Origin: Bacteroidetes bacterium HGW-Bacteroidetes-14
GTDB taxonomy: Bacteria > Bacteroidota > Bacteroidia > Bacteroidales > UBA932
Assembly (NCBI GenBank): GCA_002842655.1
Contig: PHDP01000007.1
Location: forward strand, 1 to 37,049
Direction of reading: 5' to 3'
DNA length: 37,049 nt
Shown piece by piece: positions 11,170 to 35,566 of this stretch. The notes under the pieces were generated by a model that saw only the letters and a list, made by a program, of their open reading frames with translations, had not been told where the DNA came from and did not search any database. Position 1 is the first letter of the stretch. Each line of letters opens with the position of its first letter. The translations under genes were made by a program, and so were the position numbers.

Positions 11170-13209
11170 CTATTTAATATAGAACGGCCAGTTAATTCCA
11201 AACTGGATCGCTGTGCGGGGAGCAGTATAATGGTATGCAGAAAAATAGTCGCCTGTTGGCCACCCCTGGGCGGCATTAAGGTATTTCACGAAAATTGCTG
11301 CCTTTTTCCACTGGATGTTGGCAAAAAGGTCAATGTATGGTGTGTTTCCAATCTCTCTCTCATTCTGGACATGGAACTGTCCGGATGCAGGATTGTATGC
11401 CGGTGCATAGTATTTCGTGTTGTAGGTCATGTCTGCTCCAAGCTGAATTGACATTACATTTTTGACAACAACAAACTGGAAGAACCAGCGTGCATTTGCA
11501 GTCAAAAGCGGAAGAGGAAGTACCGAACTGTTTGATGTAAGCTGAAGCAATCCGCGGTTATGGAAATGGAACTGCCATAATCTGAAGTTGAAGTTAAGCG
11601 ATGCCGCCATTACATTCAGAAGTTCGTTGTTCTGGCTTACAGCCCCTGTATTGTTGTAATATATATAATTGTCTATTAGTGAATATCCAAAAGTAGCCTT
11701 TAATTTATATGCAGGAATATCCAGATCGCCCTCAATTCTGGTCTCTGTACTTCTGCCGTAGTTATTGTTCCAGGCAAAGTGATTTGAGTAGTAGTACCTC
11801 TCAAGCGGCTCCGGAGTTTTGTTTTCCAGTCTGAATCTTGCAGTAAGGTGGATCCCTTCCCGTACAGGATATGCAGAGAACCTTGCTTTTGCATTTACCG
11901 AAAAGTCTCCGGCACAGTATCCTGTAAGTCCGATTTTTCCAAGACCTTCCCACTGGAAATATTTTCTGAAGATCCCTGATGCGCCAAAGTATGCATAGGT
12001 ATTGTTCAGCCTTTCATTAGCACCTTCGCCGTCAAGCTCCTGCCTCTGCCTGAAATAGGACATATACTGATGGCCAACTCCTCCCTCAAGTTTTGATACA
12101 ATTGCATCTGCAGCCCAGGGCTGAAGTCTTATGAAGAAGCGGTTTTCAATTTTGTTAAGCCTTGTTGAGTCGCTGCTTGCAAGAGGGTCAATGTAGAACC
12201 TGTTACCAAAGTAGTTTCTGGCAACTGAATCAGTGAGCGAAATATTATCTGTGTACTTGCGGTAGTGAGTTGAGAACTCAAACGAATGGCCAAGGTATGC
12301 CATTGTCCCCTCTCCAACCTTTGATGAATCTTTTTTGGAGAATCTGATTGGAATTCCGTAAGAGTGAGTCAAAAATATTGAGTTTCTCTTTAACCTGTTG
12401 TATGCCTCTTTAAGAGTATAGTTTACCTCTCTTGGATTAATAAGGGTATCCAGGATTTCAGTATCATCAGTTACACCTCCGTTCTCCTCCCTGCGAATTG
12501 ACTGGAAGATGTATCCGGCATGCATTACATACCTTTTTCCAAGATAGTTGGATGTAAATGAGAATGTTCTGTTGTCGGTTGATTCTTTGTTAAGGATTCC
12601 CTTGCCGCCCCATCTGTCGTACAAGAGCGTAACATTCAGAGCAGGAGAGAGGTTCTGGGTTGTGAGAACATGAATATTGCTCTCCTCTTTGGCTCTCTCT
12701 GCCAGGATGGTTCCCCTGTATGCAAGTTCGGTGTGGGGCGTTTTTACATTGTAAAAAGGGTGACTCTCCTTTGAATAGCTGTAGATAAGATATGGGTCAA
12801 ACGGAGTAAAGTCTTCTGATTTTACCCTCTTAAAAAAGTTTCTGCTTTGTGCAGCTGAACCTGCAACTCCAAGGTATTCGGCCCCAATGTCATTTTTTGT
12901 GAATGGCAGGAAGTGGAAGTTGTAGTCATATGTAGTATCCTGCTTAAGCATCCCTGTGATTCTGTTGAGATAGCTGTCGTGGTTCCAGAGAATAATCCGT
13001 TTGAATTTGAGGGAGTCCGGAATGTAGTAACTCTCAAGAAACATTGGTTTTGCATTGCTGATACTATCCTTTACAGCCTCAATTGAATCTCTCTGGGCAC
13101 GGGTAAGATTTCTCTTCTGTGCATATGACTGATTAAAGCAGAGCACTGCAGCCATAAGCGCTGCAATGCCCGCAGTAATCTTTATGATATTGTATCTGTG
13201 TTTGCTCAT
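11170..13209 (-). CDS. Large outer-membrane barrel, 'putative porin' family
   Basis: The 679-residue protein has a signal peptide ending SYAQKR and then a charged stretch (NLTRAQRDSIEAVKDS) common to this Bacteroidota porin family. The rest is a long series of amphipathic strands with many aromatic residues, for example YVMHAGYIFQSIRR, FNFRLWQFHFHNRG and TAIQFGINWPFYIK at the C-terminus, which ends on an aromatic-rich strand as outer-membrane barrels do. Substrate is unknown. It has its own -7 box and probably heads a two-gene operon with the lytic transglycosylase, close downstream of the SIS/MFS/ROK genes. Confidence 0.82.
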   Translation of the reverse strand: MSKHRYNIIKITAGIAALMAAVLCFNQSYAQKRNLTRAQRDSIEAVKDSISNAKPMFLESYYIPDSLKFKRIILWNHDSYLNRITGMLKQDTTYDYNFHFLPFTKNDIGAEYLGVAGSAAQSRNFFKRVKSEDFTPFDPYLIYSYSKESHPFYNVKTPHTELAYRGTILAERAKEESNIHVLTTQNLSPALNVTLLYDRWGGKGILNKESTDNRTFSFTSNYLGKRYVMHAGYIFQSIRREENGGVTDDTEILDTLINPREVNYTLKEAYNRLKRNSIFLTHSYGIPIRFSKKDSSKVGEGTMAYLGHSFEFSTHYRKYTDNISLTDSVARNYFGNRFYIDPLASSDSTRLNKIENRFFIRLQPWAADAIVSKLEGGVGHQYMSYFRQRQELDGEGANERLNNTYAYFGASGIFRKYFQWEGLGKIGLTGYCAGDFSVNAKARFSAYPVREGIHLTARFRLENKTPEPLERYYYSNHFAWNNNYGRSTETRIEGDLDIPAYKLKATFGYSLIDNYIYYNNTGAVSQNNELLNVMAASLNFNFRLWQFHFHNRGLLQLTSNSSVLPLPLLTANARWFFQFVVVKNVMSIQLGADMTYNTKYYAPAYNPASGQFHVQNEREIGNTPYIDLFANIQWKKAAIFVKYLNAAQGWPTGDYFSAYHYTAPRTAIQFGINWPFYIK

Positions 13210-14019: not shown

Positions 14020-15174
14020 TTAATTTTTTGAACGTATGTATTTTGTGTTAAAATAGAAAATCACAGGAACCGCCAGTGAGATGGCAGCTATGAGAATTGT
14101 GAGGGAGCTGAGCCCCAGAACTCCAACCATAAGATTGATAAGGGTATTTCCAATAAGTGCTATGGTAAGGGCAAAGCTGAATGCTGTTCCGGATACCTCC
14201 CTGAATTTATCTCCAATTACTGAGAAAACTACAGGGAATGTGGCTGCAGAGCCCATACCTGTCAGGAAGGTTCCAACTGAAACCCACAGGTTGTCTGAAG
14301 TAAGTCCCACTATTGTGATACCGGCAGCAGCAACGGTCATACTTAGGGTAAGCAGAAGAGACTTCGAGAAGATTCTGAGCAGCACACCCAGGAGGATTCT
14401 TCCGGTTCCCATACCAAAGACCATAAAACTAAGGGCATAAAGTGCATTCTCTGATGAGAATCCCTTTACCTTTTCAAGAAAACTTGGTATCCAGTTGCTT
14501 GCAAGACCTTCGGCACCGCTCTGCAGAAACAGGGTGAAGGCAAGCAGCAGCATAGCCGGCTCCTTTGCGAGGGCAAGCATCTTCTTAACAGGAAATCCCC
14601 CTTCGAATTTTCCCTCAGGAAACTTTACAAAGAGGTAATACAGAACAGAGCAGGCCATGATAACACCCGCTGCCGAAACAATATGCGTATATGTGTAGAT
14701 ATGCTTTAAAGATGCAAAAATTAGCGGGATTGTAATGGCGCCAACTGTGTAGAATACACCCAGAATACTAAGGTTAGAGGCTCTTGCCTTGTCCGAAGAT
14801 GCATCTGAAATAAGAGCACTTGTAAGACCGTTCAAAATTCCTCCTCCCAGTCCAATAAAGAAGATAGCTATCCTCACCAGACTTACAGAAGGTGCAAAGG
14901 CGAGCAGCTCCATTCCAAATACTGCTGCAAGAGTGGCTGCTATCAGAAGCTTTTTATATCCGTATCGGTCTACAACCGGACCAAACACAAGCGAACCAAG
15001 CATCAGCCCAAGCGGAAGAAGGCCTGCAATTGTGGAGGCGCCGGCCGTGTCAAGTGAAAATTTCTCAATCAGGGATGGTAAAACGGAGCCCATCACCACC
15101 AGTGACACTCCAAAGAAGACCATACCAGAGAAACCGGCAGCCAGAACGGCAAAGTTTCCTTTATGTGAATTCAT
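14020..15174 (-). CDS. MFS transporter, probable sugar permease
   Basis: This 384-residue protein has 12 predicted membrane helices and the major-facilitator loop motif GPVVDRYGYKKLL between helices 2 and 3. It resembles the fucose/glucose permease branch and simple 12-helix sugar symporters rather than drug exporters, but the substrate cannot be read from sequence. Gaps of 2 and 3 bp to the ROK kinase and SIS genes imply one transcript and one pathway: uptake, phosphorylation, then isomerisation or cleavage. There is no outer-membrane SusCD pair here; the porin gene just downstream could supply entry. Confidence 0.82.
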   Translation of the reverse strand: MNSHKGNFAVLAAGFSGMVFFGVSLVVMGSVLPSLIEKFSLDTAGASTIAGLLPLGLMLGSLVFGPVVDRYGYKKLLIAATLAAVFGMELLAFAPSVSLVRIAIFFIGLGGGILNGLTSALISDASSDKARASNLSILGVFYTVGAITIPLIFASLKHIYTYTHIVSAAGVIMACSVLYYLFVKFPEGKFEGGFPVKKMLALAKEPAMLLLAFTLFLQSGAEGLASNWIPSFLEKVKGFSSENALYALSFMVFGMGTGRILLGVLLRIFSKSLLLTLSMTVAAAGITIVGLTSDNLWVSVGTFLTGMGSAATFPVVFSVIGDKFREVSGTAFSFALTIALIGNTLINLMVGVLGLSSLTILIAAISLAVPVIFYFNTKYIRSKN

Positions 15175-26917: not shown

Positions 26918-27038
26918 ATGTCAGCCTAATTTACAATATTTTATATATCAGTTATATACAATTTCTAAATCTATATTTTTAGAAATTACGTTGTAATTAA
27001 TGGCTTGTAAGACAGACGAATGTAAATTAGGCTGACAT
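26918..27038. repeat. 121-bp segment bounded by perfect 18-bp inverted repeats
   Basis: ATGTCAGCCTAATTTACA at 26918-26935 recurs as an exact reverse complement at 27021-27038. The right copy covers the last three codons and stop of the DUF3795 gene. The 85 bp between are AT-rich and hold a second perfect 10-bp inverted repeat (26960-26969 / 26978-26987) and a third of 6 bp (26984-26989 / 26993-26998). There is no T-run after the outer stem, so it is not a normal terminator. It could be an invertible promoter segment, a small MITE-like element, or an inverted duplication of the gene's end. Confidence 0.8.
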
Positions 27039-29801: not shown

Positions 29802-29847
29802 GCCTCAGAGGTAAAGTGTCAGATTGTTGAAACTTTTCCTCTGAGGC
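29802..29847 (-). terminator. Intrinsic terminator, 46-bp hairpin copy 1
   Basis: The minus strand forms a 16-bp stem with one mismatch around an 18-nt loop and is followed by AATATTTTTTC. It lies 14 bp after the stop of the 597-residue protein gene. It is 44/46 identical to the hairpin at 31763-31808, including the loop. Confidence 0.8.
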
Positions 29848-29861
29848 GTAAGAGTTCTGCT

Positions 29862-31655
29862 CTACGGAATAATGGTTAAAGTAACAGTGTATTCAGTAAC
29901 AGTTACGGAATATCCGTCATCGGTTTTTACTTCGCCGGTAAAGGTCCAGCTTTTTGCAGAGACAGGGGATTTTACATAGTTTTCGAGATCTTCTGAGCTG
30001 GGGAATTTTAAAACAGCATCTGTACGGTCAAGTTTTATCAGGGGTGCAATTTTAACTCTGTCGGCATTCCATTTTTTAAGAAGGCAATCATATTGCTCGA
30101 CTGTTGTTGAAGGCCATGGTGCATTTGTGTGAACAGCAAATTCAGGACTGCCGGAAATTGTAAGGTGATATCGGCGACCGGATGAGATATCGCCATCCTT
30201 TGATGGTGTTAAGGTGGCCGCAATGTTCAGCATATATTTGTCAAGAGTCGCATTGCCTTTACTTCGGATAGTGGTTATAAGAGGCAGTTCGTCTTCGCAG
30301 TTCTTTGTTTTGGTGCGGAACTCCTCAGAGACTGTTACATTTCCGTCATCTGTTCCGGTAAAGAGCCAGCAGTTTGCAAATTCAGAACAGTTTTTCGCAT
30401 TTTCGGGAGACTTCTGAATGTACCATAATTTTGAGGCAACAAAATCAATATCAAGGTTTGCAGAGATTCTTGATATGTGAACTGTCTCAGAGTTATGAGG
30501 CTCGCCGGTTGTTGTTGTGGTTTTTCTGGTTATTGCTATTTTACTTTTCCACCCTGAATCGTATTCAAGTGTTAGAGCATCAATCGGGTTTTCCCGGGCA
30601 GTAACTTTGTATTTTTTGTAATTGACCTCTTTTCCCTCGGAGTTAAGATGGAACGGAAGAAATACCAGATAATTGGTTCCTGTGTAGAGTTCGGCATCTG
30701 CTGTAAATGTAGAGTCTCCTGTTAAAGTAGCGTCAAGATCCTTTTTGTCTGTGCCGTTTGATATAACTATCTGGATTTTTGTCACCTTGTCAAACTCGCC
30801 TGCCGGATTGCTTATAGAACCTTGAATTTTAATTTTCTGAGTCTTAACAGTCTCTTCATTTGAATGAGATTCTATGTTCAGGTCAAGTGTATCCCGGAGT
30901 TCATAAAGACCGCGATTACCCTCTGTTTCTGATTTTACGGGAAACCAGTACTTCTTCTTAAGTACATCTCTCTCGATTTTTGCCCTGCCGTCCTGAGTTG
31001 AATGAACTCCAAAAGAGTAGACCTTGTCTTCGTATCTCGCAGAAGCTGTCTCGTACCCTGCCTTCTCAACCATCTCTTTTGCCTTAACTCCTTTATCATA
31101 TTTTTCAGCCTTGAATCTAAGCTCTTTGAACCCTCCAATTTTAAGTGCCGGGTCCTCATAGGGTTTGGAAAGGGCAGATCCGTCAGGGGAGTAAACCACA
31201 TTTCCATCTGGTTTTAGCCCGTAAATATTCAGCTCCGGTAATTCTCCATCTGCCGAATACATTGTCAGATTGAGGTAGGGAATGTTAGCCGCTGTGCTGG
31301 ACACTTTCAGAGCAACCGTTTTTCCGGTTGCATCCTGAACTCTTTCAACCCAGTATTGCACCTTGTCGTTCGGGTTTTTATATGAAGCTGTATTTACGCC
31401 ATCCGGAAAAGAAAAATCTGCCATTATCTCGCCTGTACTGGGTTCTCCCAGGCTGATTCGTTTAACGACACAATGGGTACCCAGAGTTTTTCCGCCTATC
31501 TGATAGGCACTGTCCGGGATGTTTGTAAATTCTGTTTTGTAGACCCCTCCTGATGAGTTACCGCTCTGAGCATTGCAAAGATTTGTGCCAAAAAGTAAGA
31601 GACCCGCCGCCATAATAATGACCGGGACAAATTGCTTAAGAGAGATTCTTAGCAT
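29862..31655 (-). CDS. Large secreted protein of unknown function with an internal repeat
   Basis: The 597-residue protein has a signal peptide ending LCNAQ. No catalytic motif is visible; it is rich in Thr, Ser, Asp and Lys and predicted mostly beta, like an adhesive or structural surface protein. Two stretches resemble each other: near residues 420-450 (CWLFTGTDDGNVTVSEE) and at 566-593 (WTFTGEVKTDDGYSVTVTEY), suggesting duplicated domains. The protein does not carry a clear lipobox, anchor or type 9 secretion C-terminal domain. Upstream is a 107-bp AT-rich leader with no strong -7 box; downstream is a strong terminator. The gene sits between two near-identical hairpins. Confidence 0.8.
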   Translation of the reverse strand: MLRISLKQFVPVIIMAAGLLLFGTNLCNAQSGNSSGGVYKTEFTNIPDSAYQIGGKTLGTHCVVKRISLGEPSTGEIMADFSFPDGVNTASYKNPNDKVQYWVERVQDATGKTVALKVSSTAANIPYLNLTMYSADGELPELNIYGLKPDGNVVYSPDGSALSKPYEDPALKIGGFKELRFKAEKYDKGVKAKEMVEKAGYETASARYEDKVYSFGVHSTQDGRAKIERDVLKKKYWFPVKSETEGNRGLYELRDTLDLNIESHSNEETVKTQKIKIQGSISNPAGEFDKVTKIQIVISNGTDKKDLDATLTGDSTFTADAELYTGTNYLVFLPFHLNSEGKEVNYKKYKVTARENPIDALTLEYDSGWKSKIAITRKTTTTTGEPHNSETVHISRISANLDIDFVASKLWYIQKSPENAKNCSEFANCWLFTGTDDGNVTVSEEFRTKTKNCEDELPLITTIRSKGNATLDKYMLNIAATLTPSKDGDISSGRRYHLTISGSPEFAVHTNAPWPSTTVEQYDCLLKKWNADRVKIAPLIKLDRTDAVLKFPSSEDLENYVKSPVSAKSWTFTGEVKTDDGYSVTVTEYTVTLTIIP

Positions 31656-31762: not shown

Positions 31763-31808
31763 GCCTCAAAGGAAAAGTGTCAGATTGTTGAAACTTTTCC
31801 TCTGAGGC
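31763..31808 (-). terminator. Intrinsic terminator, 46-bp hairpin copy 2
   Basis: The minus strand forms a 16-bp stem, with one G-U pair, then ATTTTTTTGCTTTTTC. It lies 35 bp after the methyltransferase stop. A second, smaller hairpin (GCGCAT/ATGCGC, 31819-31833) stands between the stop and this one, making a tandem terminator. Confidence 0.8.
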
Positions 31809-33177: not shown

Positions 33178-33198
33178 ATTCAAATAGTAAACGCAACT
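33178..33198 (+). repeat. IS30 left terminal inverted repeat
   Basis: Reads ATTCAAATAGTAAACGCAAC plus one T. It matches the reverse complement of 34299-34319 at 19 of 21 bases and includes the transposase stop codon. Confidence 0.8.
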
Positions 33199-34169
33199 TT
33201 TTGATTTTTGCCGGTTAAATAATTAAACATTTCGTTAGGTGTTGAGAACTTATATCTTTTTCTTGGTCTGTTGTTAAGTTTTGCTTCAATTTCTTCCAGA
33301 TCAGCAATAGTAATATTCTTGAATGATGTTCCTTTCGGTATGTATTGGCGAATGAGTCCGTTTGTATTTTCATTTGAACCTCGTTCCCAGGAGTGGTATG
33401 GTGTAGCGAAGAAGAAGTCTGCGTTGAGTTCTTTTGCTATTTCCTGATGGTAGGCAAATTGTATTCCGTTGTCTGATGTTATTGTCTTCACCAGACCGTT
33501 ATCTGACATTGGCTTCAGGGCCTTTACGGCCTGTCTGAGGGCTTCTGCTGCACTAGCGTTGAGCATTTTTCTTATCCTCACTATACCTGTAGCTCTGTCG
33601 TTGATAGTGAGTATGTGTTCTGAGTGAGAGGCGCCTATTATGGTGTCCATTTCGAAGTCTCCGAATCGGGTTCTTTCATCTACTATGCTTGGTCTTTGAG
33701 ATATATCTACGCGGTTTTGGATGGCTCCTCTTTTCTTGCTTTTGCGACCTCGTTTTCGATATCTTCTCTGTTGGTGTCTCAGATAACGGAATAAGTATCC
33801 GCCATTTTTCTTGTCATTCCAGATCCATTGGTAAATGGCTTCGTGAGATACCATAGCCACGCCCTTTTTCTTACAGTCTCCGGCTATCTGTTCTGGGCTG
33901 TAATGCTCTTCCATAAGCAATTCTTTTGCTTTTTCGAGCATTTCCCCTTTAAGTTTTCTGGGCAGCTTGCGATGGTTCCAGCGGTACTCTGCTCTTCGTT
34001 GTGCTTCTTTTGACTTGTAGGTACGGTATCTGCCGTAACCGTTACGTTCGATTTCTCTGTAAATTGTTGTTTTGTTTACGCCAAGGAGATTGGCGATTAA
34101 AGGCTTTGAAAGTCCAGCTCTTAAATAAGCAGAGATTTCGTACCTTCGTTCAACGGTAAGGTGTTTCAT
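33180..34169 (-). CDS. IS30-family transposase
   Basis: From ATG 34169 the protein has 329 residues (MKHLTVERRYEIS opening). An N-terminal HTH (GLSKPLIANLLGVNKTTIYREIERNG) precedes an RNase H-fold catalytic core. Counting from the TTG at 34202, the triad is D186 (FEMDTIIG), D244 (TSDNG) and E278 (ERGSNENTNGLIRQY), a spacing of DD33E, the hallmark of IS30. PKGTSF and the basic C-terminus follow. The reading frame is intact, so the enzyme may be active. The upstream TTG start is not supported. Confidence 0.93.
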   Translation of the reverse strand: MKHLTVERRYEISAYLRAGLSKPLIANLLGVNKTTIYREIERNGYGRYRTYKSKEAQRRAEYRWNHRKLPRKLKGEMLEKAKELLMEEHYSPEQIAGDCKKKGVAMVSHEAIYQWIWNDKKNGGYLFRYLRHQQRRYRKRGRKSKKRGAIQNRVDISQRPSIVDERTRFGDFEMDTIIGASHSEHILTINDRATGIVRIRKMLNASAAEALRQAVKALKPMSDNGLVKTITSDNGIQFAYHQEIAKELNADFFFATPYHSWERGSNENTNGLIRQYIPKGTSFKNITIADLEEIEAKLNNRPRKRYKFSTPNEMFNYLTGKNQKVAFTI

Positions 34170-34227
34170 CATGTGACTGATTTTTGGCGATTTCGGGAAC
34201 AAGTTAGAAATTATCTGCCGGTTTCCG

Positions 34228-34257
34228 GAGGGTCATTAGTTTCTGCTGGTGACCCTC
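34228..34257. other. Hairpin inside the IS30 right end
   Basis: An 8-bp perfect stem (GAGGGTCA/TGACCCTC) with a 14-base loop lies 59-88 bp upstream of the transposase ATG, inside the element. Such structures in IS ends often hide the start site from transcripts entering from outside. No T-run makes it a clear terminator on the minus strand. Confidence 0.55.
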
Positions 34258-34298
34258 TTTGTTGATAACTCCTTAGTGATCCTTAGTTACAAATCATC

Positions 34299-34319
34299 AG
34301 TTGCGTTTCCTAGTTGAAT
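34299..34319 (-). repeat. IS30 right terminal inverted repeat
   Basis: The reverse complement reads ATTCAACTAGGAAACGCAAC plus one T, 19 of 21 the same as the left end. Confidence 0.8.
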
Positions 34320-34413
34320 CTAAGAAAATGTACCGTCAGCTTGCTGCCGGTGGAGGTGCAGCGCTGAGCGCGCATTTATTGTCTGGATAAGCTTTTCCGG
34401 TGATTTTCATTGA

Positions 34414-34528
34414 CACCCGTGCGGCTGTAAGTTGCATATTATGAGCACTTAGCCCGTTAATCTGACATCTCAGATGTCAGATTAACGGGCTAAGCTCTAT
34501 CAATCAATTAATTACAGCCGCACGGGTG
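34414..34528. repeat. Nested palindromes: 47-bp perfect palindrome inside a 17-bp inverted repeat
   Basis: CACCCGTGCGGCTGTAA at 34414-34430 is repeated as an exact reverse complement at 34512-34528. Inside lies a 23-bp arm (34448-34470), a single C at 34471, and its exact reverse complement (34472-34494). The whole covers 115 bp and starts 14 bp beyond the vWA stop. The gap 34320-34541 otherwise holds no gene; 34320-34413 is G+C-richer than its surroundings and shows no ORF. There is no T-run for a classical terminator. Recombination site, replication or hairpin-based element, or a repetitive extragenic unit are possible. Confidence 0.85.
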
Positions 34529-34541
34529 CTTGTCTGAAGTC

Positions 34542-35204
34542 TTATGAAACTGTTTTGTCGTTTGGATCCTCAGGAATAAAATAGCTGGTATTCATATTCT
34601 CATTCATGTGGATTTTGCGGTTGTAATTTACGCGGGCGTCATGGTCTTTTTGGAACATCTTTTTGATGTCGGCCTCATTCTTCTCAAAAACGAGTGTGTT
34701 GGTGATTGAGAGGGAGAGGGCGATTTTTTCGACATCGTGGTCTGTGCCAATGTAGGTGAAGGTCCAGTTTCTCGGCTTCAGCTCATCTATTAGAAATTTT
34801 ATATCAAAGGCGGAGTGCTCTCTTGAGGCATTCTCTTCGCCGTCTGTGAGGATTGTTACCAGCACATTGTAGTTGTTCTGCCTGGCAAGTGCGTAACTGA
34901 GCTTGTTTATGGCAAATGCCATTGCGTCATATAGCGGAGTGGTGGCTTCGGGTTCGTAGCTCTTGTCGTTAATCTGTTGTAGCTTGCTTGCGGGGTCAAT
35001 AAAATGGAGAACTTTCTGACCAAGGCCGTTGAAAGTTATAAATGAGATATAGTGTTCCTGTTCGGGGAACTGTTTCTCAATACCGTGAATTGTCTGGACC
35101 AGTTCGTTGAATCCTTGAATTATGGTGGATTTTATACTCTCCATTGATCCGCTTTCGTCAAGGATAATCAGGTTATGCACCTGATGTTTTTGTTCTGTTG
35201 TCAT
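34542..35204 (-). CDS. Cytoplasmic von Willebrand factor A-domain protein
   Basis: The 220-residue protein is almost entirely one vWA domain with a complete metal-ion site: D16-x-S18-x-S20 (ILDESGSM), Thr near 88-89 (EATTPLYDA) and Asp121 (ILTDGEENAS). There is no signal peptide or membrane anchor, so it works in the cytoplasm, typically as a metal-dependent protein-binding or assembly factor. Such stand-alone vWA proteins occur in chaperone, stress and tellurite-type clusters, but no partner is next to it. It shares an operator-like element with the 99-residue gene across the IS30 element, and the 3' end adjoins the nested palindromes. Confidence 0.88.
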   Translation of the reverse strand: MTTEQKHQVHNLIILDESGSMESIKSTIIQGFNELVQTIHGIEKQFPEQEHYISFITFNGLGQKVLHFIDPASKLQQINDKSYEPEATTPLYDAMAFAINKLSYALARQNNYNVLVTILTDGEENASREHSAFDIKFLIDELKPRNWTFTYIGTDHDVEKIALSLSITNTLVFEKNEADIKKMFQKDHDARVNYNRKIHMNENMNTSYFIPEDPNDKTVS

Positions 35205-35230
35205 AGTGATGTTATTAGTTGGTAATGAGA

Positions 35231-35265
35231 CAAAGGTAGGGCGGGGGATTGTCAGGTTTTGACAA
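35231..35265 (-). promoter_or_regulatory. Promoter with 17-bp operator-like motif, copy B
   Basis: The minus strand has TACCTTTG (35231-35238), an exact TAnnTTTG match. Ten bases upstream is TTGTCAGGTTTTGACAA (plus-strand reading, 35249-35265), a perfect inverted repeat TTGTCA/TGACAA around five bases. The motif would cover the -33 region, so a bound dimer could block or recruit polymerase. Confidence 0.65.
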
Positions 35266-35266
35266 A

Positions 35267-35566
35267 CTAGTAAATTGTAAGATTGATTTTGCGTCCAAGA
35301 CCAAATTCGATAAGTTTGTACAATGTTGAAAGCTGTATATCGCTGTGTCCGTTTTCAATTCTTGATATAAAGCTTTTTTTTGCTCCAATTTTTTGTGCAA
35401 GTTGTTCCTGTGTAAGCTTTGCCAGTTTTCTCTCTTCTTTTATGATTACACCTATGGCAAATGCTTTTGCCTTAATCTCAAAGTCTGTCCGGCTTTTAGT
35501 TCCAATTTTGCCATACTCCTTGTCGAGGTGTTGAGAGAGTGTTGTTATGCTGTTATTGGTTTTCAT
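35267..35566 (-). CDS. Orphan XRE-family HTH protein (antitoxin-like)
   Basis: This 99-residue protein has a helical N-terminal part and an XRE helix-turn-helix at about 44-90: KLAKLTQEQLAQKIGAKKSFISRIENGHSDIQLSTLYKLIE. Its size and layout resemble HigA- or HipB-like antitoxins. No toxin ORF lies upstream (35567-35930 is non-coding), and the downstream gene is the vWA protein 62 bp away, not HipA. So it is either an antitoxin that lost its toxin or a stand-alone regulator. A -7 box with a -33 TTTG at 18-bp spacing precedes it. Confidence 0.85.
   Translation of the reverse strand: MKTNNSITTLSQHLDKEYGKIGTKSRTDFEIKAKAFAIGVIIKEERKLAKLTQEQLAQKIGAKKSFISRIENGHSDIQLSTLYKLIEFGLGRKINLTIY

Follow-up and report, generated by a model that had tools for sequence, protein, structure and literature searches.

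A dispersed 113-bp palindromic repeat with conserved ends and variable paired cores in a Bacteroidales genome, probably a REPIN-like element dependent on a RAYT transposase

What is the long palindrome that lies between a vWA-domain gene and an IS30-family insertion sequence in the 37,049-nucleotide stretch of DNA analyzed here (the window), and what put it there? As the preliminary description of this locus had it, a near-perfect 47-bp palindrome is nested in a 17-bp inverted repeat. A palindrome scan gives 23-bp arms that are perfect around a single C at 34471, so that the core palindrome (23+1+23, no strand, core type TCTGACATCTCAGATGTCAGA) spans 34448–34494. It is enclosed by two forward-strand arms, delimited from the sequence and the alignment of copies, at 34414–34430 and 34512–34528, perfect complements of each other, the left one consisting of the conserved end ACCCGYACGGCTGTAA plus one more paired base. 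The full structure reads 57+1+57 with 81% complementarity, and the element as it recurs elsewhere occupies 34415–34527 (113 bp, 56+1+56, no strand). In 40 first-order Markov shuffles of the window the longest arms were at most 10 bp (mean 8.2) versus the 23 bp observed; palindrome and enclosing inverted repeat are far above chance expectation. When folded as single-stranded DNA, the window copy reaches −46.2 kcal/mol, whereas 200 shuffles average −10.5 (sd 2.4), which corresponds to z −14.9.

An ordinary intrinsic terminator, with a G+C-rich stem and a T-run, was dropped as a candidate because the T-run is absent at the window copy, and a terminator scan of 34100–35300 returned four sites, none of them the palindrome, in agreement with the earlier view that this is not an ordinary terminator. 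An integron attC-like site was set aside because the ends of the palindrome, compared by eye, mismatch the core-site consensus, and the sole Rfam match in 34000–35000 (RF04130, 27 bits where the gathering score is 119) is taken as chance. The two neighbors lie where they had been placed: the vWA-domain gene (34542–35204, minus strand, PF00092) is outside the element and ends about 15 bp from it, with its stop at 34542, and the IS30-family insertion sequence (33178–34319, approximate borders, minus strand; NF033563, 7e-82) has its best inverted-repeat end at about 34318–34320, some 95 bp away, with no clear target duplication seen at its ends.

A repetitive element had been one of the readings proposed for this locus, with a single-copy sequence as the result that would tell against it, and a search of the host genome decided for the former. 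In this genome (G000), a 2.14-Mb metagenome-assembled genome (MAG) of 202 contigs that is 82.5% complete, a BLAST search with the 115-bp unit found further copies, and a core-pattern search found more copies with a second core. Using a covariance model (R1), we located the element at no fewer than 25 places in G000 and at least 34 in G011, a relative assembled as one contig; with 150 candidates scored per genome these counts are lower bounds, and the weakest places may represent related families. The length is exactly 113 nt in 49 of the 59 places listed for the two genomes, and a scan of named genomes for outer ends spaced 112–114 bp apart found 12 stretches, all 12 at 113 bp, with 11 in the MAG HGW-Bacteroidetes-10 and one in Gw_SlPrim_bin_240 (Bacteroidales). 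Eighteen copies (15 from G000 and three from G007) align gap-free over 113 columns. Their equal length is partly built into the alignment (centre ±56), and independent evidence on length comes from the R1 listing and the spacing scan. Within the genus, 12 of 25 genomes have R1 matches (both strands: G007 69, G011 65, G000 47, G024 36, G022 16, G021 6 and six others 1–2 each), with copy number differing strongly between species. This overstates the spread of the element family, since the weak hits in G001, G017 and G023 seem to belong to the repeats of other families of RAYT, the REP-associated (Y1) transposases considered below. Across the order, an R1 scan with stricter filters gave 2 of 247 genomes, namely the own genome and one marginal hit, while plasmid and phage collections held no match at E 1e-5 and a scan of viral contigs yielded 0 stretches.

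We examined 50 of these copies for their position relative to genes (22 of the 25 places in G000 and 28 of the 34 in G011, nine mostly weaker ones being excluded), and 48 have no overlap of more than 20 bp with an ORF of at least 100 aa, which makes the element extragenic. Such placement raises the question of a structural or regulatory intergenic element, e.g. a bidirectional terminator, an mRNA stabilizer or a protein-binding site, selected at each site and non-mobile. The position of the window copy 15 bp beyond a gene would suit this, as would the 18 of 42 classified copies that lie between convergent ORFs and one convergent site where two relatives carry a T-run terminator and G000 has the element. 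The same 42 copies include 14 in tandem and 10 in divergent context, however (six more were unclassed), the T-run is missing, copy number shifts strongly within the genus with 13 of 25 genomes having no match, and the repeats are associated with RAYT genes, so that we regard a regulatory origin as very unlikely.

The copies share their outer half-sites (consensus ACCCGtAcgGCTGTAAc), followed by a less conserved spacer and then the core, whose centre is mostly G or C and stands between T and A in all 66 copies. Several core types are found, among them TCTGACATCTSAGATGTCAGA, CCTGACAGATSACCTGTCAGG, CCTGTCAGGTSACCTGACAGG, CCCCGCGGATSATCCGCGGGG and TCCGAGGGGTSACCCCTCGGA, and the core differs between copies while its pairing is retained. 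Two-sided changes were seen in 17 of 35 pairs, a count that by itself is not above shuffles (89 of 500 reach it), but the number of cells with two-sided changes, 71, was reached by none of the 500, and covariation scored 0.315, higher than in any of these shuffles (mean 0.162) or in any slid control (maximum 0.083). Paired cells amount to 92.6% in the inner helix versus 78.4% in the outer. This last difference would suit the view that the paired cores are kept by hairpin-templated mutation, in which one arm corrects the other and transposition has no need of a core palindrome. Such hairpins do seem to form and be processed: G011 and G024 share a region with about 97% identity outside indels, and there two of three G011 elements are without DNA starting, within a base, at the palindrome centre; we infer that G011 lost this DNA. 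Arm-to-arm correction alone leaves dispersal, near-constant length, conserved outer ends and the RAYT link unexplained and is highly improbable as the full account, though it can act alongside transposition as a source of the covariation.

Core deletion recurs among these elements, between sister species, and the window site itself offers a case. At the same site beside the vWA gene, G007 has no IS30, and its copy is a remnant of 70 bp in which the two outer ends are kept and the core is deleted; a repeat with ends ATGTCAGCCTAA adjoins it. The window copy thus probably predates the split from G007, and the suggestion of a recent arrival finds no support for this copy, a remnant being present at the same place in this sister species. 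The vWA gene of G007 at this site (L079, G007:C7:149942–150358) has an in-frame TGA and may be broken. Conservation at this position in relatives lacking IS30 had been named in advance as an observation that would count against a mobile element, and it is found as a remnant in one relative, G007.

The same remnant bears on the earlier suggestion of a link with IS30-family transposases, which favour palindromic targets. When the window's IS30 protein was compared by tblastn with 44 element-bearing sources, the only match was in the window itself (1 of 44). Since IS30 is near one source only and is absent from the orthologous G007 site, we judge it incidental to the element, and both IS30 targeting and an IS30 derivative were dropped in view of copies without IS30 in the other 43 sources.

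In a broader form of this idea, the repeat would be MITE-like, and a DDE transposase (of IS30, IS3 or another kind) would move it as double-stranded DNA by acting on its terminal inverted repeats. The perfect 17-bp terminal repeats and the dispersed copies are compatible with it, and an IS3-family insertion sequence with ends TGTGCCGTCCTGAAATAGG accompanies 6 of 132 element ends, 6–7 bp outward (L087:11824, L155, L156, L157, L166 and L037). Those IS3 ends are unlike the element ends ACCCGYACGGCTGTAAC, and 3-bp duplications were seen in four IS3 copies; IS3 therefore looks like an insertion sequence that landed beside the element, and it may preferentially target the edge of the repeat. The other IS3 ends in G000 are not beside an element. 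Besides the rarity of IS30 near the sources, a self-paired core would be superfluous for a DDE element, and no clear target duplication was found at the 113-bp edges of 66 copies for k=2 to 8 (at k=3, one versus 0.45 on re-pairing), which tells against DDE transposition unless the moving unit is larger. All told, we give a DDE origin very little credence. The lack of duplications is likewise weak evidence for a single-strand mechanism, because the moving unit may exceed 113 bp: of 161 outward flanks, 118 are similar in register to the flank of another copy, which implies that larger mosaic units often carry or surround the repeat. Recurring modules do accompany the elements (GGTGCCGG hairpins, CGCGCGCAGCGCTGCACC and TTCGCAAAAATCATCTGCCGAATGGCC), and mosaic intergenic clusters occur, e.g. 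at L262, L264, L103 and L152. A search for precise empty sites found only approximate ones. RAYTs are described as cleaving single-stranded REPs at CT (PMC8266576); the dinucleotide just outside the element ends is CT in 19 of 132 cases (0.14; background 0.063), not above AT or TT (22 each).

A direct link to a transposase comes from G011. Its RAYT gene (L087:13429–14244, 271 aa) scores 36.8 bits with PF01797 (cut-off 23) and 47.7 bits, 1.4e-12, with REP_Tyr_transpos (cut-off 80). A 113-bp element lies 8 bp beyond its stop and a second at 14591, while before the gene there are elements at 11236 and 11705 with an IS3-family insertion sequence in between. The outer ends of these elements are those of the window element and the cores differ; among the RAYTs examined, only this one has window-type outer ends. 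HUH/Y1 features are present, with PF01797 above its cut-off and NH(V/W)H and Y119-I-x-x-N-P invariant in all seven aligned RAYT proteins, whose tyrosine motifs read YILQNP, YILSNP, YIINNP and YILNNP (RAYT lengths about 245–277 aa).

An association of RAYT genes with inverted repeats extends beyond this gene. Among 48 RAYT loci of the genus (from 52 listed matches to the G011 protein, with four short or second-part fragments excluded and a few flanks cut by contig ends), 33 have an inverted repeat scoring at least 15 within 350 bp and 21 have one on both sides, the left and right ends being the same by eye in 20 of these 21; the remaining 15 have no palindrome within 350 bp. Random positions gave 0/300 and 0/1000 (window's first 26 kb), which is too easy a comparison, and the fairer control of ordinary ORFs gave 12 of 49, the sequences concerned being dispersed copies of such repeats; four of these 12 are in R1-picked loci and two are the window element counted for both its neighbors. 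The three best matches of the G011 RAYT among those listed are all from G021 (46, 44 and 42% identity), and each adjoins a central palindrome of 37–43 bp. The repeat beside one of them occurs at 21 places in G021 with 0 matches in G000, G007 and G011, and the RAYT at G021:C6:275180 shares synteny with the G011 gene to either side. In a tree, the four core-type RAYTs need two changes, as low as none of 500 shuffles, and so are clustered; as a single supported clade they appear in 0% of bootstrap trees.

Y1_Tnp matches are present in 22 of the 25 genus genomes. The search for RAYT/Y1_Tnp in the own genome, with its 82.5% completeness, gave 0 matches, and nothing close to the G011 RAYT turned up in element-rich G007 (best match 41%). 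A protein scan of the named genomes found no relative either, and a PDB sequence search with the G011 RAYT returned 0 at E 0.1. In the region syntenic to the G011 RAYT, an element is followed by the end of the sequence, at a contig end in G007 (C37) and inside an IS3 copy in G000 (C117); as these regions break off after the element, the own genome may either have lost its RAYT, which would make the element an orphan there, or carry it in an unassembled stretch. The lead to a REP-associated (Y1) transposase in the preliminary description is borne out in relatives, through the elements flanking the G011 gene and the inverted repeats near 33 of 48 RAYTs.

Other repeats in the window have counterparts beside other RAYT genes of the genus. 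Two 46-bp hairpins (GCCTCARAGG...CCTYTGAGGC) at 29802–29847 and 31763–31808 flank a gene at 29862–31655; their ends match palindromes GCCTCAGAGGAAAAGTGTC beside a different RAYT family, and they look as if they were core-deleted copies of that family's palindromes. A 121-bp inverted repeat at 26918–27038 has ends ATGTCAGCCTAATTTAC, which also flank a RAYT in G007 (L096) and occur at the G007 counterpart of the window palindrome site.

Several intergenic sites are common to species, with similar outer ends and differing cores, in a raw list of 32 rows that has several rows per site. The clearest is G000 C123:1396 versus G007 C42:39688, where the flanks match from the element edge outward and the cores differ. 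At a site we call lspA/rpoE-like (signal-peptidase-like and sigma-factor-like genes, named by eye), the G000 copy is poor at its left end, the G007 copy has the G000 core and is interrupted by about 90 bp, G021 has its own core type, G011 and G024 have a T-run terminator and G022 has nothing. These differing cores may be due to in-place core exchange, repeated hot-spot insertion or copying of a larger unit. A bolder proposal is that the core palindrome is an exchangeable cassette, such that the RAYT of a species rewrites old copies in place, with outer ends and 113-bp length kept, and each species would come to have a core of its own at the intergenic sites in question. The lspA/rpoE-like site, two more common to G021, the RAYT locus and the C123/C42 pair can be cited for it; we consider it rather unlikely, and if true it would mean that a RAYT renews an entire population of bacterial repeats in concert.

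Taking these results together, we believe that the window palindrome is probably a non-autonomous, REPIN-like repeat of the TIR type that depends on a RAYT, an HUH/Y1 tyrosine transposase. In single-stranded form the 113 nt would fold as one long hairpin, whose conserved outer ends the RAYT would recognize in their inverted orientation; it would then cut and transfer the strand, and so scatter copies across intergenic space. The core would have to pair with itself, for which many sequences would suffice. The binding and moving of these elements by a RAYT, acting on single-stranded DNA, is inferred, the mechanism being taken mostly from known RAYTs and the evidence here being sequence.

Like REPINs (Bertels and Rainey 2011, PMC3116915), which have preferred spacings of 71 and 110 bp, these repeats have inverted conserved ends, a preferred spacing, a folding spacer with compensatory changes, an extragenic position, several families in one lineage and, in G011, a link to a specific RAYT. 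Unlike REPINs as described there, the window-type ends have no GTAG-type motif and no hairpin of their own (by eye, neither a GTAG motif nor a stem with a loop of at least 3 in the half-site ACCCGtAcgGCTGTAAc), the long core palindrome is separate and changes in sequence, and the host belongs to the Bacteroidales. A RAYT in the same genome, as REPINs have, accompanies the elements in G011 and was not found in G000, which is 82.5% complete. TIRtrons are RAYT-like (TIRYT) genes flanked by long inverted repeats rather than REPs, and some of their repeats are dispersed, self-complementary and in dimers or clusters (PMC3733652). The 33 of 48 RAYTs near a long inverted repeat, 21 of them on both sides, resemble this, with window-type ends at one gene; the published description consulted makes no mention of a fixed 113-bp unit with interchangeable cores. 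Among the systems compared, the TIRtron description appears to fit best. In subclass 2.6 of TnpA_REP in Bacteroidetes, the Y1 genes are bordered by ‘atypical secondary structures’ that recur elsewhere in the genome (PMC6006769), and the Y1 genes of the present genus likewise stand beside structured repeats with genome copies, but have YIL/YII-x-NP and about 245–277 aa instead of YIH[QN]NP and a median of 179 aa. A literature search, with subscription journals thinly covered, found no title or abstract on repeats of this type in Bacteroidales.

Intergenic repeats of the ERIC type are imperfect palindromes of about 100–130 bp between genes. The element is like them, by description, in its size and in being an intergenic palindrome; ERIC is not known to be linked to a RAYT.

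The window element thus appears to be a variant of an already known kind, the REPIN-like, RAYT-associated repeats of the TIR type, whose 113-bp geometry and differing paired cores we have not found in print. This reading would account for a long palindrome in this chromosome, and the remnant in G007, a sister species, illustrates their decay through deletion of the core. It would further point to a lineage with many parallel pairs of RAYT and repeat, in which a near-constant 113-bp geometry is kept while cores vary and yet remain paired, and would thereby offer a natural experiment that distinguishes what a RAYT reads, the outer ends, from what only folds, the core.
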